Source: a virus. Taken from it: DNA of 32,951 nt. The notes beneath the pieces were generated by a model. The model did not search any database. It saw nothing but the letters and a program-made list of their open reading frames with translations, and was not told where the DNA came from. A program made the position numbers and the translations under genes. Location of the stretch: positions 1 through 32,951 of the IMG/VR virus record IMGVR_UViG_3300047169_000105; one strand, given 5' to 3'. This document shows positions 3,226-19,259 of the stretch, piece after piece. Position 1 is the stretch's first letter, and each line of letters opens with the position of its first letter.

Positions 3226-3381
3226 TCAGTCCCCCAAAATTCCAACATCGTGCAAGACTTCCCGCACAATCTCCCGCACGCGCCGCTCGGTAAGAGGTGC
3301 TGACATTGCAGATTGCAGCCTCTCGTTTTCCTCTTTCAGCGTGGCGATGCAGTCAATCGGGTCAATGTACCCGCCAGTCAT
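3226..3381 (-). CDS. 51-residue phage protein
   Basis: A short ORF encodes MTGGYIDPIDCIATLKEENE, then a basic helical tail ending VLHDVGILGD. Its ATG at 3379-3381 overlaps the XF1762 gene stop in ATGA fashion, and its stop falls one base before the next gene's start, so it fits the coupled operon exactly. The segment CIATLKEENERLQ mirrors CIATLKAENATLK in the next gene, suggesting that the two share a duplicated coiled-coil module. The function is unknown. Confidence 0.65.
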   Translation of the reverse strand: MTGGYIDPIDCIATLKEENERLQSAMSAPLTERRVREIVREVLHDVGILGD

Positions 3382-3824
3382 GTGGCCTCCCAAAGTAGTT
3401 TCTGTCCTTGCAGCAATTCGGCGGTATCAACGCGCGGTCTGCTCGGCACGTTCCAATTCCCCCCACCGCGCTCCCCGATCAATTTCCAGCCAGCTGCGCG
3501 AACGCTTGCGCCCCCCTCTTGCGGCAGTGTGTATGTAATCAGCCGCGTGTACCCCAATGCCTTTGCCGCACGCCACGCAGCCCCGTAGAGCATTGAGCAA
3601 GCGTTCTTTGCCCCGTCTGTGCATACGCGGTTTACTTCCAGCGTGTAGCCCGTATCGCTCATCCTGGCGACTGGCCTGCCAACCATAGCCACCCCGCGCA
3701 CCTTGTCAGTCTCATCAGAAACTGCAATGCAGAACTTGCAGCCGGGTATTGCTTTGTGGTGACGGTGATAGGTCGCCACGAAAGCATTGGCTTCGGCAAA
3801 GTCAATCGGCGTTACGCGTAGCAT
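3378..3824 (-). CDS. XF1762-family protein (GNAT-like)
   Basis: This 148-residue protein matches the phage XF1762 family in the features I recognise: an N-terminal ATYHRHHKAIPGCKFCIAV, then VRGVAMVGRPVARM, LEVNRVCTDGAKNACSMLYGAAWRAAKALGY and a C-terminal GG-rich loop with NWNVPSRPR. The central region resembles an acetyltransferase (GNAT) fold, but neither substrate nor activity is known. The ATG at 3822-3824 overlaps the upstream gene by 23 bases. The next gene overlaps it by four bases. Confidence 0.8.
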   Translation of the reverse strand: MLRVTPIDFAEANAFVATYHRHHKAIPGCKFCIAVSDETDKVRGVAMVGRPVARMSDTGYTLEVNRVCTDGAKNACSMLYGAAWRAAKALGYTRLITYTLPQEGGASVRAAGWKLIGERGGGNWNVPSRPRVDTAELLQGQKLLWEAT

Positions 3825-4227
3825 CGGCTTTGTCCCGCTGTATAGCGGCGTCAGCAAGGGCGGCTTCGGCTTTCTCGGCGCGTTCGTAATGGAATTGACG
3901 CCCCATGATGGCTTGCGTGAGATGTTCTTCCAATTCCGCAATCCTCCTATCCCGCACGTCATCCGAAGTGGCGCCGGGAGCTTGTGGTTGGGGAGCGGCG
4001 TAAAGCGCAATAGTTTGTGGAGCCGGTGCCTTCCACTCAGCACGCCCAAAATCAGGCTTTTCAAAGCTAACTGAATTGCCCCACGGAGCAACGACCATCC
4101 ACGCCACCGGCTCTTGCGGTGCTGCGCATTGATAGCAGTGATCCGCTGCCCATACGCCGTGCTTGCAACGCTCTTGCGGGGATGCTTGGGGGATACGCAG
4201 GGCTTCGTCGCGTTGATCTGTGGTCAT
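3802..4227 (-). CDS. Ea22-like phage early protein
   Basis: This 141-residue protein carries the pattern CKHGVWAADHCYQC, then PVAWMVV, a charged loop and IALYAAPQPQAP, followed by a predicted coiled coil (DRRIAELEEHLTQ onward). The PVAW...LYAAPQ block is a recurring module of accessory proteins in the left operons of proteobacterial prophages (Ead/Ea22-like). The two CxxC-like pairs near the N-terminus may bind zinc. It starts at 4225-4227, two bases after the upstream stop. The function is unknown. Confidence 0.7.
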   Translation of the reverse strand: MTTDQRDEALRIPQASPQERCKHGVWAADHCYQCAAPQEPVAWMVVAPWGNSVSFEKPDFGRAEWKAPAPQTIALYAAPQPQAPGATSDDVRDRRIAELEEHLTQAIMGRQFHYERAEKAEAALADAAIQRDKADATRNAD

Positions 4228-4229
4228 GA

Positions 4230-4583
4230 CTAGTCCTGCGCCCGACGCCAACCTTCCGGGGTGTATTCGCGCTGGCGGCGCACTTCGAAAATACCGGCAG
4301 GAATCTTGATCGTTTCGTGCGTATCCCATCCGCGCAGGTGTTCCAGCAACGCTTCCGTTGCATCGGTGGCCTCGATAACCTCGAGGTAGGAAACGAACGG
4401 ATCTTCGCTGTCGTATAGCCGCACGTTGGGGCGCTCTGCGATGACATGATTGTGTCCGGTTTCAGAATGGGCAACCACGAACACGCCGTTTTCGGCGGTT
4501 GCCGGCTTCACGCCAGCGGGCAGCCTGTCAATCCGGCGAAGCATCACGTCACCTTGAGCGGCACAGTTTTGAAACGTTTTCAT
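4230..4583 (-). CDS. Conserved phage protein (HSETGHNH motif)
   Basis: This 117-residue protein begins MKTFQNCAAQGDVMLRRIDRLPAGV and contains AHSETGHNHVI and a C-terminal VRRQREYTPEGWRRAQD. I have a general memory of this family in Pseudomonas and Burkholderia phages, with no known function. The clustered His/Glu residues could bind a metal. The start is supported by a strong AGGAG ribosome site seven bases upstream of the ATG at 4581-4583. It lies 13 bases downstream of the DUF6745-like gene. Confidence 0.7.
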   Translation of the reverse strand: MKTFQNCAAQGDVMLRRIDRLPAGVKPATAENGVFVVAHSETGHNHVIAERPNVRLYDSEDPFVSYLEVIEATDATEALLEHLRGWDTHETIKIPAGIFEVRRQREYTPEGWRRAQD

Positions 4584-4596
4584 TTGAATCTCCTGG

Positions 4597-5922
4597 TTAA
4601 GTACGCACTTCGGGGTGGAACTGGGTTGCATCTAGGCCAAACGTCCAGGCGTTTGCCTGCAATGCAGTTTTCATTTCCTTCGGTACTGGTATTGCAAACT
4701 CGCGCTGGGTGGCGCACATCACGCGCAAAAACTTTTCCTTGCCTGAGCCGGGAAGGTTGACCTCCACCAAAGTACCGATCTGCGGAGCATCAACGTCGAT
4801 GACCTTGGCCTTGAGTTCCTTGAGGATTCTTGCCCACCCAACGATTTCGCAAGCGGCGCGACGCTGCTCGATGTTCTCCCAAGTAAGCGCCGTCTTGGCG
4901 GACAATTCCGACTTGCGCTCGATCCACTCGGCGGGGATTCGCACCCCATGCCAGTGATAAAGCGCCCATCCGTCGCGCCATAGATGCGACGGGCCGTCCT
5001 CACAGTGCGGCCTGTTTTGCTCGTCCTTCTTCAACACCACCGGAAAGTCCGAAACCAAACAAAATTCCTCGTGCATGACGCGAAACCCTCCCTCTCGCGC
5101 GGCGGCCTCGTAAAATGCGAAAGCCTCATGCTCTTTTAACCGCAGCCCAAGAACATCTCTAAAAGCCGTCAAGTACGAGCACCAGGCCGCCCACATATTC
5201 CCGCCTTGATAGGCGCCATACCATCGGCGCGCACACTTAATTCCGCCAATCCCTGCCAAGGCCATGCAGGCGTCCGCTGCGTTTTTCTCGGGGTCACCGT
5301 CAGGCGCGTACGTGGCTGCGTACGTGGCTGCTATCGTGGCTGCGTCCGTGGCTGCTCTCGTGGCTGCTCTGGTGGCTGCGTCCGTGGCTGCTATCGTGGC
5401 TGCTCTCGTGGCTGCTATCGTGGCTGCTCTGGTGGCTGCGTTCGTGGCTGCGTCCGTGGCTGCGTCCGTGGCTGCGTACGTGGCTGCGTACGTGGCTGCG
5501 TACGTGGCTGCGTCCGTGGCTAAGTCCGTGGCTGCGTACGTGGCTGCGCTCGTGGCTAATTCCGTGGCTGCGTACGTGGCTGCGTCCGTGGCTGCGTACG
5601 TGGCTGCGCTTTCACCATTTTTCCTGCAATGCCAAATCCACGCCGAAGCGCCGTAAGCAAAAGCCATGACAAGCGGGGAGGGAACTATTACGACCAGTGG
5701 CTCTTTCAACCCCGCAGCAGTGTAAATTCCCTTGATTGCCGGAACGATCTTGGAAGGATCAATCGGATCGGTTCGCATCGCAACGCCAATCCACTCTTTT
5801 GCAACGGCGTCCATGCGCAACTTTTCTTCTGCGGTTATGCCGCCAGTTGCCTTGCTTGGGGTGCGAATGATTTTCATGCTAATTTTTTCCTTGTCGCTTG
5901 GGGTATTGATGAAATCAATCAT
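4597..5922 (-). CDS. DUF6745-like protein with 25 tandem AATx repeats
   Basis: The 441-residue product has three parts. Residues 1-105 form an N-terminal domain (SKATGGITAEEKLRMDAVAKEW, then VVIVPSPLVMAFAYG). Residues 106-205 are 25 consecutive tetrapeptides, mostly AATx, where x is Tyr, Asp, Ile, Arg or Asn. The rest is a C-terminal domain with CEDGPSHLWRDGWALYHWHGVRIP (about 307-330) and ENIEQRRAACEIVGW, resembling DUF6745. Function is unknown. The ATG at 5922 has an AAGGGA site. An internal ATG at 5877, beginning MKIIRTPSK with AAGGA upstream, is an alternative start. The repeat region is far more regular than the rest and likely changes length. Confidence 0.75.
   Translation of the reverse strand: MIDFINTPSDKEKISMKIIRTPSKATGGITAEEKLRMDAVAKEWIGVAMRTDPIDPSKIVPAIKGIYTAAGLKEPLVVIVPSPLVMAFAYGASAWIWHCRKNGESAATYAATDAATYAATELATSAATYAATDLATDAATYAATYAATYAATDAATDAATNAATRAATIAATRAATIAATDAATRAATRAATDAATIAATYAATYAPDGDPEKNAADACMALAGIGGIKCARRWYGAYQGGNMWAAWCSYLTAFRDVLGLRLKEHEAFAFYEAAAREGGFRVMHEEFCLVSDFPVVLKKDEQNRPHCEDGPSHLWRDGWALYHWHGVRIPAEWIERKSELSAKTALTWENIEQRRAACEIVGWARILKELKAKVIDVDAPQIGTLVEVNLPGSGKEKFLRVMCATQREFAIPVPKEMKTALQANAWTFGLDATQFHPEVRT
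5306..5605 (-). repeat. 25 x 12-bp in-frame minisatellite
   Basis: Reading the + strand, 25 units of 12 bp follow one another without a break. Each unit ends in the constant GTGGCT and has a variable core, for example GCGTACGTGGCT, GCTATCGTGGCT, GCGTCCGTGGCT or GCTCTCGTGGCT. The period is a multiple of three, so copy-number change keeps the DUF6745-like gene in frame. Variation is concentrated in the codon for the fourth residue of each AATx unit, while the Ala-Ala-Thr codons are nearly constant. Confidence 0.95.
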
Positions 5923-18461: not shown

Positions 18462-19259
18462 TTGGCACGCATCCGCACGATAAAGCCAGAGTTCTTCCGC
18501 CATGAGGGCCTTCAGGATCTTGAGGCGGCGAACCCTGGGAAGCAGGTGATGCTGGTTTTCGCTGGGCTCTGGGGCCACTGCGATAAGGCCGGCCGGTTCG
18601 AATGGAAGCCGCGGCAACTGAAGCTGGACATCCTCCCGTTCCTTGAATTCGACATGGTGGAAACGCTCGGGGCGCTCGAGCGCGCCGGTTTTCTGCGCAG
18701 TTACGAAGTCGCCGGCCGTCGCTACGGCGTCATCCCGTCCTTTGCCGATCACCAGCGCATCAACGGCAAGGAAGCCCAGGAACCGGAGAAGCACCCGCCA
18801 CAACCCTTTTGCGAACCGGAACCTACTTGTGAAACAGATTTGAACCAGTCGGGAACAAATAGGGAAGCAACCTGGAAGCAACCGGGAAGCAACCTCCCGG
18901 ACAGGAAGGGAAGGGAAGAGGAAGGGAAGGGGAATGGAGAAGCGCGCGGTGCGCGCCCGCTTCAAGTCCCCGACCTGGTCGCCGATGGCTTGACCGAGCA
19001 AACCTCCGTCGAGTGGTTGGCGCACCGCAAGCGCAAGCGCGCGCCGCTGACGCCGATCGCCTGGAACGCTATCAAGGCCGAAGCAGAGAAGGCGGGTTGG
19101 CCCATCGAGGACGCGATCCTCAAGGCGCTGGCGCGTGGATGGCAGGGGCTTGAAGCCGAATGGTTACGCAAGGATGGGGACAGCCGTCGGGGCCGCGCGG
19201 CCGATGGCGGGCTGGGTGAAGGGCCGCGCGGATTCCTCGAAGAAATGGGGCAGCAATGA
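18462..19259 (+). CDS. Phage replication initiation-type protein
   Basis: The N-terminal part of this 265-residue protein, MARIRTIKPEFFRHEGLQDL to LERAGFLRSYEVAGRRYGVIPSFADHQRINGKE, is a winged-helix domain common to phage replication (O-like) proteins. A low-complexity linker (about 110-160) follows, then a C-terminal WLAHRKRKRAPLTPIAWNAIKAEAEKAGWPIEDAILKALARGWQGLEAEWL domain. It would recognise the phage origin and recruit a helicase loader. The start is a TTG with GAGG upstream. The linker-coding DNA holds direct repeats that may be the origin, as in lambda O. Confidence 0.8.
   Translation: MARIRTIKPEFFRHEGLQDLEAANPGKQVMLVFAGLWGHCDKAGRFEWKPRQLKLDILPFLEFDMVETLGALERAGFLRSYEVAGRRYGVIPSFADHQRINGKEAQEPEKHPPQPFCEPEPTCETDLNQSGTNREATWKQPGSNLPDRKGREEEGKGNGEARGARPLQVPDLVADGLTEQTSVEWLAHRKRKRAPLTPIAWNAIKAEAEKAGWPIEDAILKALARGWQGLEAEWLRKDGDSRRGRAADGGLGEGPRGFLEEMGQQ
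18863..18894 (+). repeat. Candidate replication origin repeats
   Basis: Three copies of GGAAGCAACC begin at 18863, 18874 and 18885, an 11-bp period. They are followed by a purine-rich run (18901-18940) of GGAAGGGAAG-type repeats on the same strand. They lie inside the linker of the replication gene, where lambda has its O-binding iterons. No AT-rich unwinding region is obvious. Confidence 0.5.

Follow-up and report, generated by a model that had tools for sequence, protein, structure and literature searches.

A phage coding minisatellite of four-residue units with one hypervariable position, joined to a DUF6745 domain

Layout of the locus

The window, which here means the whole stretch of DNA analyzed, comprises an entire IMG/VR virus record of 32,951 bases. 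It contains genes for RecE/RecT and a CI-like repressor and, as identified from the translations of the open reading frames (ORFs), for an integrase, a terminase and a capsid protein. This gene content is that of a temperate tailed phage. The features of the locus are the following.

4597-5877, minus strand: gene for a protein composed of N-terminal domain, tetrad array and DUF6745 domain (ORF list; relatives begin at the equivalent Met)
5608-5877, minus strand: N-terminal domain of about 90 residues, conserved in the family (AlphaFold2 pLDDT about 90 over residues 1-80; alignment columns)
5308-5607, minus strand: 12-bp coding minisatellite of 25 units, (AATx)25 (TRF; unit table; in-register AlphaFold2 helix, pLDDT 95.7)
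5134-5307, minus strand: helical linker with a YQGGNMW motif (alignments; AlphaFold2 helices)
4600-5133, minus strand: DUF6745 domain, PF20530 (hmmscan E 6.9e-26, residues 264-441)
4230-4583, minus strand: small His-rich partner gene (AQGD..HSETGHNH..DTHE..RRQREYTPEGWRR), phrog_27831-like (PHROG E 1e-8)

Starting from MKIIRTP (5877) the protein has 426 amino acids, and 441 when the ATG at 5922 is used (ORF 4597-5922); the relatives support MKIIRTP as the probable start. The DUF6745 match scored 91.2 bits against a Pfam gathering score of 27 bits, so that the C-terminal domain is a member of this family, the Pfam domain as such being without an array. This bears out the first-pass annotation, which had placed the array between an N-terminal domain and a DUF6745-like domain. 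DUF6745 was the sole match in a Pfam search with E up to 10, and none of the Pfam repeat families (TAL effector, WD40, ANK, TPR, pentapeptide) matched the array protein. With PADLOC, 0 defense families matched the array protein or its small partner, and the partner had no match in Pfam or NCBIfam either. A literature search found no paper naming DUF6745 or DUF7666. Since a survey of Alphaproteobacterial genomes detected DUF6745 in 1 of 289, that one being the query's own, the domain is rare in Alphaproteobacteria. The gene had been called early, a label consistent with its place in a block of leftward genes that lies between integrase and RecE/RecT. Directly downstream of the partner gene, a Mom-like DNA modification protein is encoded at 3378-4091 on the minus strand (phrog_1384, E 4e-38). 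A short 11-bp tandem repeat of 3 copies lies at 18852-18895 of the window (TRF score 59).

TRF reported a single array at 5306-5608 with a period of 12, 25.2 copies and a score of 348. In codon register, 25 units occupy 5308-5607 on the minus strand, corresponding to residues 106-205 of the 441-residue ORF. The 25-copy in-frame 12-bp minisatellite (AATx)25 recognized earlier was thus confirmed by TRF and the unit table; the span proposed for it, 5306-5605, captured the array and lay 2 nt off the codon register. Across the 25 units, x is Y in 8, D in 7, R in 4, I in 3, and N, E and S in one each; Tyr, Asp, Arg, Ile and Asn had all been listed before, with Glu and Ser left out. Units 5 and 8 depart from the AAT start (LATS and LATD). 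Silent sites are nearly fixed in the first three codons (GCA 23/25, GCC 25/25, ACG 23/25). Chance falls far short of explaining 25 frame-keeping copies whose silent sites do not vary. Mis-assembly may have altered the number of units on the window's contig, and counts derived from short reads should be treated cautiously because assemblies break in the array, 30 of 84 related contigs beginning inside it. An array of the same kind, also of 25 units, is present in a related gene of an isolate genome, that of Pseudothauera rhizosphaerae CC-YHH848 (L098). On the plus strand, long spurious ORFs span the array (5206-5656) because the 12-bp unit has no stops.

Relatives and array turnover

The first viral scan yielded 16 relatives and the second 100, of which the best 80 were kept; the genome scan yielded 7 bacterial contigs. 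Overall, relatives are encoded on about 100 viral contigs and in 7 bacterial genomes, and the number of units at the one fixed site runs from 0 to 94; every relative has an array, or something replacing it, at this common location. Nearly all arrays come from metagenome assemblies. Counting arrays with 8 or more units, the longest in the DUF6745 set reaches 76 and the shortest 8 units, and L132 has 94; since arrays were found by regular patterns, degenerate ones are undercounted. In five relatives (L024, L025, L027, L037, L039) 30-60 unrelated residues stand in place of the array. Because array-less relatives exist (among them L024, L039 and L313), the family can do without an array. The four-residue unit can be written x-y-z-f, in which y is mostly A, D, S, N, Q, G or T depending on the lineage and the z-f pair is A-T, A-V, Q-V, S-L or Q-L. 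The period of 4 is retained while the chemistry of the lineages shifts through xAAT, xDAT, xSAT, xNAT, xQAT, xNAV, xQV, xSSL and xDQL.

The partner gene sits 13 nt downstream of the array gene, and 59 of 81 loci have a relative of it no more than 1.5 kb away on the same strand. It also occurs near distant DUF6745 genes in cyanophages (L313, L314), Streptomyces (L305, L322), Deinococcus (L321), Nocardia (L320), Nonomuraea (L318, weak), a spring-water phage (L306) and a Mycobacterium prophage (L307); among the distant DUF6745 loci examined, Aulosira (L319) was the exception, with no partner found. As the partner accompanies DUF6745 with or without arrays in these distant pairs, the two make up a conserved core, to which a variable array may or may not be added. 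On the Deinococcus plasmid (L321:1374-2375), apparent leucine-rich repeats, recognized by reading the sequence, replace the N-terminal domain and the array of the DUF6745 protein, and the gene adjoins STM4011/STM4012 radical SAM genes. The Streptomyces DUF6745 genes (L305, L322) lie near STM4014/STM4015 genes.

Comparing close relatives, both flanks of L050 and L051 were found 100% identical, and their arrays differ by an indel of 2 units. L078 and L079 share an identical 3' flank, with 14 units missing in one of them, and the pairs L056/L058, L082/L087, L020/L022 and L002/L009 combine 3' flanks of 97-100% identity with reshuffled or different arrays. Because near-identical flanks (97-100%) bear different arrays, copy number and order turn over fast. 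The first-pass annotation had named a fixed copy number in homologues as evidence against its proposal; the number differs between phages with identical flanks. It had further expected that gain and loss of 12-bp units keep the frame, as nearly all observed array changes do. The exception is a frameshift within the array of L083/L134 (one contig), which splits the gene into two frames and may represent a pseudogene, an assembly error or an OFF state.

Diversity at position x

Diversity was determined for 57 arrays of at least 15 units each, some of which share a phage species or contig and do not count as 57 independent events. The mean per-base diversity was 0.63, 0.50 and 0.12 for codon x and 0.06, 0.31 and 0.03 for codon y. 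The remaining bases of the unit showed values of 0.00-0.04, with 0.04 and 0.03 at the fourfold sites of the Ala and Thr codons. Units were picked by their A-T positions, hence the invariance of the Ala/Thr residues is partly built in, while that of the silent sites is not. In 57 of 57 arrays the mean diversity of bases 1 and 2 of x exceeded the fourfold mean. Minimum-spanning networks, counted without eight duplicate arrays from the same species or contig, contained 253 nonsynonymous changes at x versus 45 silent ones, an 8.3-fold excess per mutational opportunity (p 9e-57); ratio and p-value assume independent changes, though multi-base changes and shuffling occur, and the p-value is indicative. 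Distant arrays behave alike: only 2 of 12 bases vary in the 45 units of L307 (xGQL/xDQL), and the 28 xSSL units of L306 have two variable bases only, with invariant silent sites. Homogenization that clears silent variants should clear x variants too, which argues for selection for heterogeneity at x. The hypervariable position in a fixed frame that had been noticed in the window thus recurs in the 57 arrays, with change at x exceeding silent change.

The residues at x come from a narrow alphabet. Codons ending in C/T (NNY) encode D (31%), R (22%) and Y (21%), those ending in A/G (NNR) encode R (31%), E (24%) and W (20%), and therefore three classes are shared: acid, arginine and aromatic. Other residues amount to 18% (NNY) and 24% (NNR), compared to about 67-69% for random codons, and Lys is found at 1% though reachable by codon. 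Among 59 arrays, R is present in 57, D in 51 and Y in 51. Acid, arginine and aromatic residues are common at hot spots of protein interaction. The pattern implies that x is held heterogeneous by strong diversifying selection, which probably draws on these three classes. Opposite charges are mildly enriched at neighboring x positions (z 2.4-3.8). A barcode-like antiparallel self-pairing of arrays was considered and dropped, as 6 of 50 reached p<0.05 with a median p of 0.42, an unconvincing signal.

Predicted structure

AlphaFold2 modeling of the full-length protein with 30 relatives gave pLDDT values of about 90 for the N- and C-terminal domains and of 37-56 for the helical array. Arrays modeled alone and in register formed one continuous helix of 98 residues with a pLDDT of 95.7 in the best of five models (89.7 to 56.8 in the others), although AlphaFold2 is prone to helices on Ala-rich sequence. 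A repetitive helix or a solenoid had been suggested before; these models favor the helix, with low confidence in the array of the full-length model, and make the solenoid the less favored of the two. A beta-solenoid, suggested by the Gly/Ser-rich arrays, was rejected on the in-register run, with the reservation that xSSL and xDQL arrays may differ; that such Gly- and Ser-rich arrays form helices is not obvious. The earlier term hypervariable surface holds in the sense of protein surface only. A PDB fold search with the full model gave no match at E <= 0.001, and in a viral library the matches passing E 0.001 were limited to DUF6745 proteins and phage fragments without a name. PDB sequence matches to the array (KHDC3, designed helical repeats) were set aside as apparent composition matches.

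Interpretation

We propose that the coding minisatellite evolves through gain, loss and shuffling of 12-bp units with the frame undisturbed. Its product would be a long rod, probably an alpha-helix, that measures about 150 A at 25 units and separates two conserved domains. Fixed Ala-Thr positions would build the rod, and one residue per turn (x and, less so, y) would be displayed. Diversifying selection would keep x mixed among acid, Arg and aromatic residues, and these may form an interaction surface tracking a fast-changing partner, which could be a host factor, a protein of defense or counter-defense, or a competing phage. The conserved activity would be borne by DUF6745 and the small His-rich partner. 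We give even chances to this helical rod whose one hypervariable residue per turn serves, together with DUF6745 and partner, as an interaction surface in an arms race. More tentative, and in our view rather doubtful, is a new phage recognition class in which the string of acid, Arg and aromatic residues on a rod of four-residue units constitutes a reshuffled specificity code, acting with DUF6745 and partner in phage-host or phage-phage conflict.

Several observations would also suit a structural rod or spacer, in which the array sets a distance or oligomerizes via fixed Ala/Thr stripes. Small residues at every fourth position would then form a tight right-handed coil of loosely constrained copy number, and at x any helix-compatible, soluble residue would suffice, mixed letters preventing aggregation or register slippage. 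The invariant positions are indeed Ala/Thr (or Gln-Val, Ser-Leu), the copy number spans 0 to 94, and opposite charges at neighboring x could act as i/i+4 salt bridges, with intrahelical bridges alone able to explain the enrichment. However, a merely tolerated x should not outpace silent sites 8.3-fold, the near absence of Lys and the restriction of Glu to purine-ending codons are unlike E/K-rich single helices, and Tyr and Trp are unexpected on a plain rod; we regard the structural role as unlikely, though to be taken seriously. A multivalent scaffold would account for the acid/Arg/aromatic alphabet in both codon classes and for the free reshuffling of order at similar composition, with stickers every four residues mediating low-specificity, condensate-like clustering of protein or nucleic acid. 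In such a scaffold composition would count and order would not, but lineages differ in composition (Leu in L066, Ala in L049, Gly/Arg/Trp in L307) and the nonsynonymous excess would not be needed, which makes it improbable.

Neutral growth of an in-frame minisatellite by replication slippage, tolerated in a linker and functionless, agrees with the array-less relatives and the frameshifted array of L083/L134. The Ala/Thr invariance in 57 arrays (partly due to the unit pattern used for detection), the heterogeneity of x next to frozen silent sites and the survival of period 4 through several chemistries speak against it, and we consider it very improbable. Lowest in our estimate stands targeted mutagenesis, by which a site-specific mechanism (e.g. 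a diversity-generating retroelement or position-specific error) instead of selection alters the first bases of the units. Variation limited to 2-3 of 12 bases and the frequent NNC form of x codons are in line with it; the chemically selected alphabet in both codon classes is not. An adenine-directed retroelement was rejected, since the adjacent Thr-codon adenine is essentially invariant and a YxDD-motif scan of the window, a motif scan only, gave no convincing reverse-transcriptase candidate.

For the helical interaction surface, known systems offer models. TAL effector repeats are helical-hairpin units of 34 residues reading DNA; the phage array resembles them in constant frame, variable reader residues and copy-number variation, but shows no sign of DNA reading. 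The array may work like PRDM9 zinc fingers, fungal HNWD or TAL repeats, in that the frame stays constant, a single reader position varies and units reshuffle fast. If the recognition code is true, no shorter repeat unit evolving in the PRDM9/HNWD mode would be known to us. Three hallmarks of this mode were found here: tandem in-frame units with near-identical DNA, a nonsynonymous excess at specific codons, and copy-number and order polymorphism among close relatives (in metagenome assemblies). The PRDM9 zinc-finger array of animals is a coding minisatellite of 84-bp units with a known DNA target, in which hypervariable codons increase unit diversity about 2.5-fold (PMC8925151). It shares with the phage array in-frame tandem units of near-identical DNA, hypervariable contact codons, copy-number polymorphism, and concerted evolution under positive selection. 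Hypervariable codons stand out far more strongly from silent sites in the phage array, and the sequences are unrelated. Fungal HNWD/HIC repeats (WD40, ANK, TPR of NLRs) have units of tens of residues, known folds and a role in non-self recognition (PMC4986451). In both systems internal repeats are highly conserved, positive selection acts on a few interface positions, and arrays reshuffle and are polymorphic in length, whereas the phage array has four-residue units, one reader position and phage genes. In mode of evolution the pattern matches PRDM9 and HNWD; in sequence and structure it does not. The PTD repeat gene of Gracilibacterium likewise has a short, hypervariable in-frame repeat, at which the genome assembly broke (PMC6851277), but it is the reverse case: its nucleotides change under a constant peptide, whereas the phage array keeps its silent sites and changes one residue.

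A constant frame with a hypervariable reader position marks fast-evolving recognition in PRDM9, fungal allorecognition receptors and TAL effectors. The sharper signature on a four-residue unit is spread over phages from several bacterial phyla and suggests an uncharacterized conflict or specificity system. The array offers a simple, testable string code, and arrays may explain why such loci break assemblies and remain unannotated.

Arrays in further settings

On a 67-kb viral contig, an xxAT array of 20 units follows a DUF7666-like N-terminus (L106:5870-6625), the DUF7666 match being weak (E 0.003, under the Pfam cut-off); a search for DUF7666 relatives of L106 returned L106 itself as the only match. 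Stand-alone mini-proteins also bear arrays of this kind. Four overlapping mini-genes, arranged end to start at L136:4283-5179, each encode a short head, an xxAT array and an RDMLREIVQEL-like tail, an amphipathic helix (RDMLREIVQEL) keeping the array's four-residue phase, a continuity that favors a helical array. A relative of the partner gene was found within a few kb of the arrays of L136 and L154. These mini-proteins, the acid/Arg/aromatic alphabet, the partner gene and the other repeat chemistries at the same site go beyond the first-pass annotation. Near the L136 mini-genes, several more small ORFs carry degenerate WxAT motifs.
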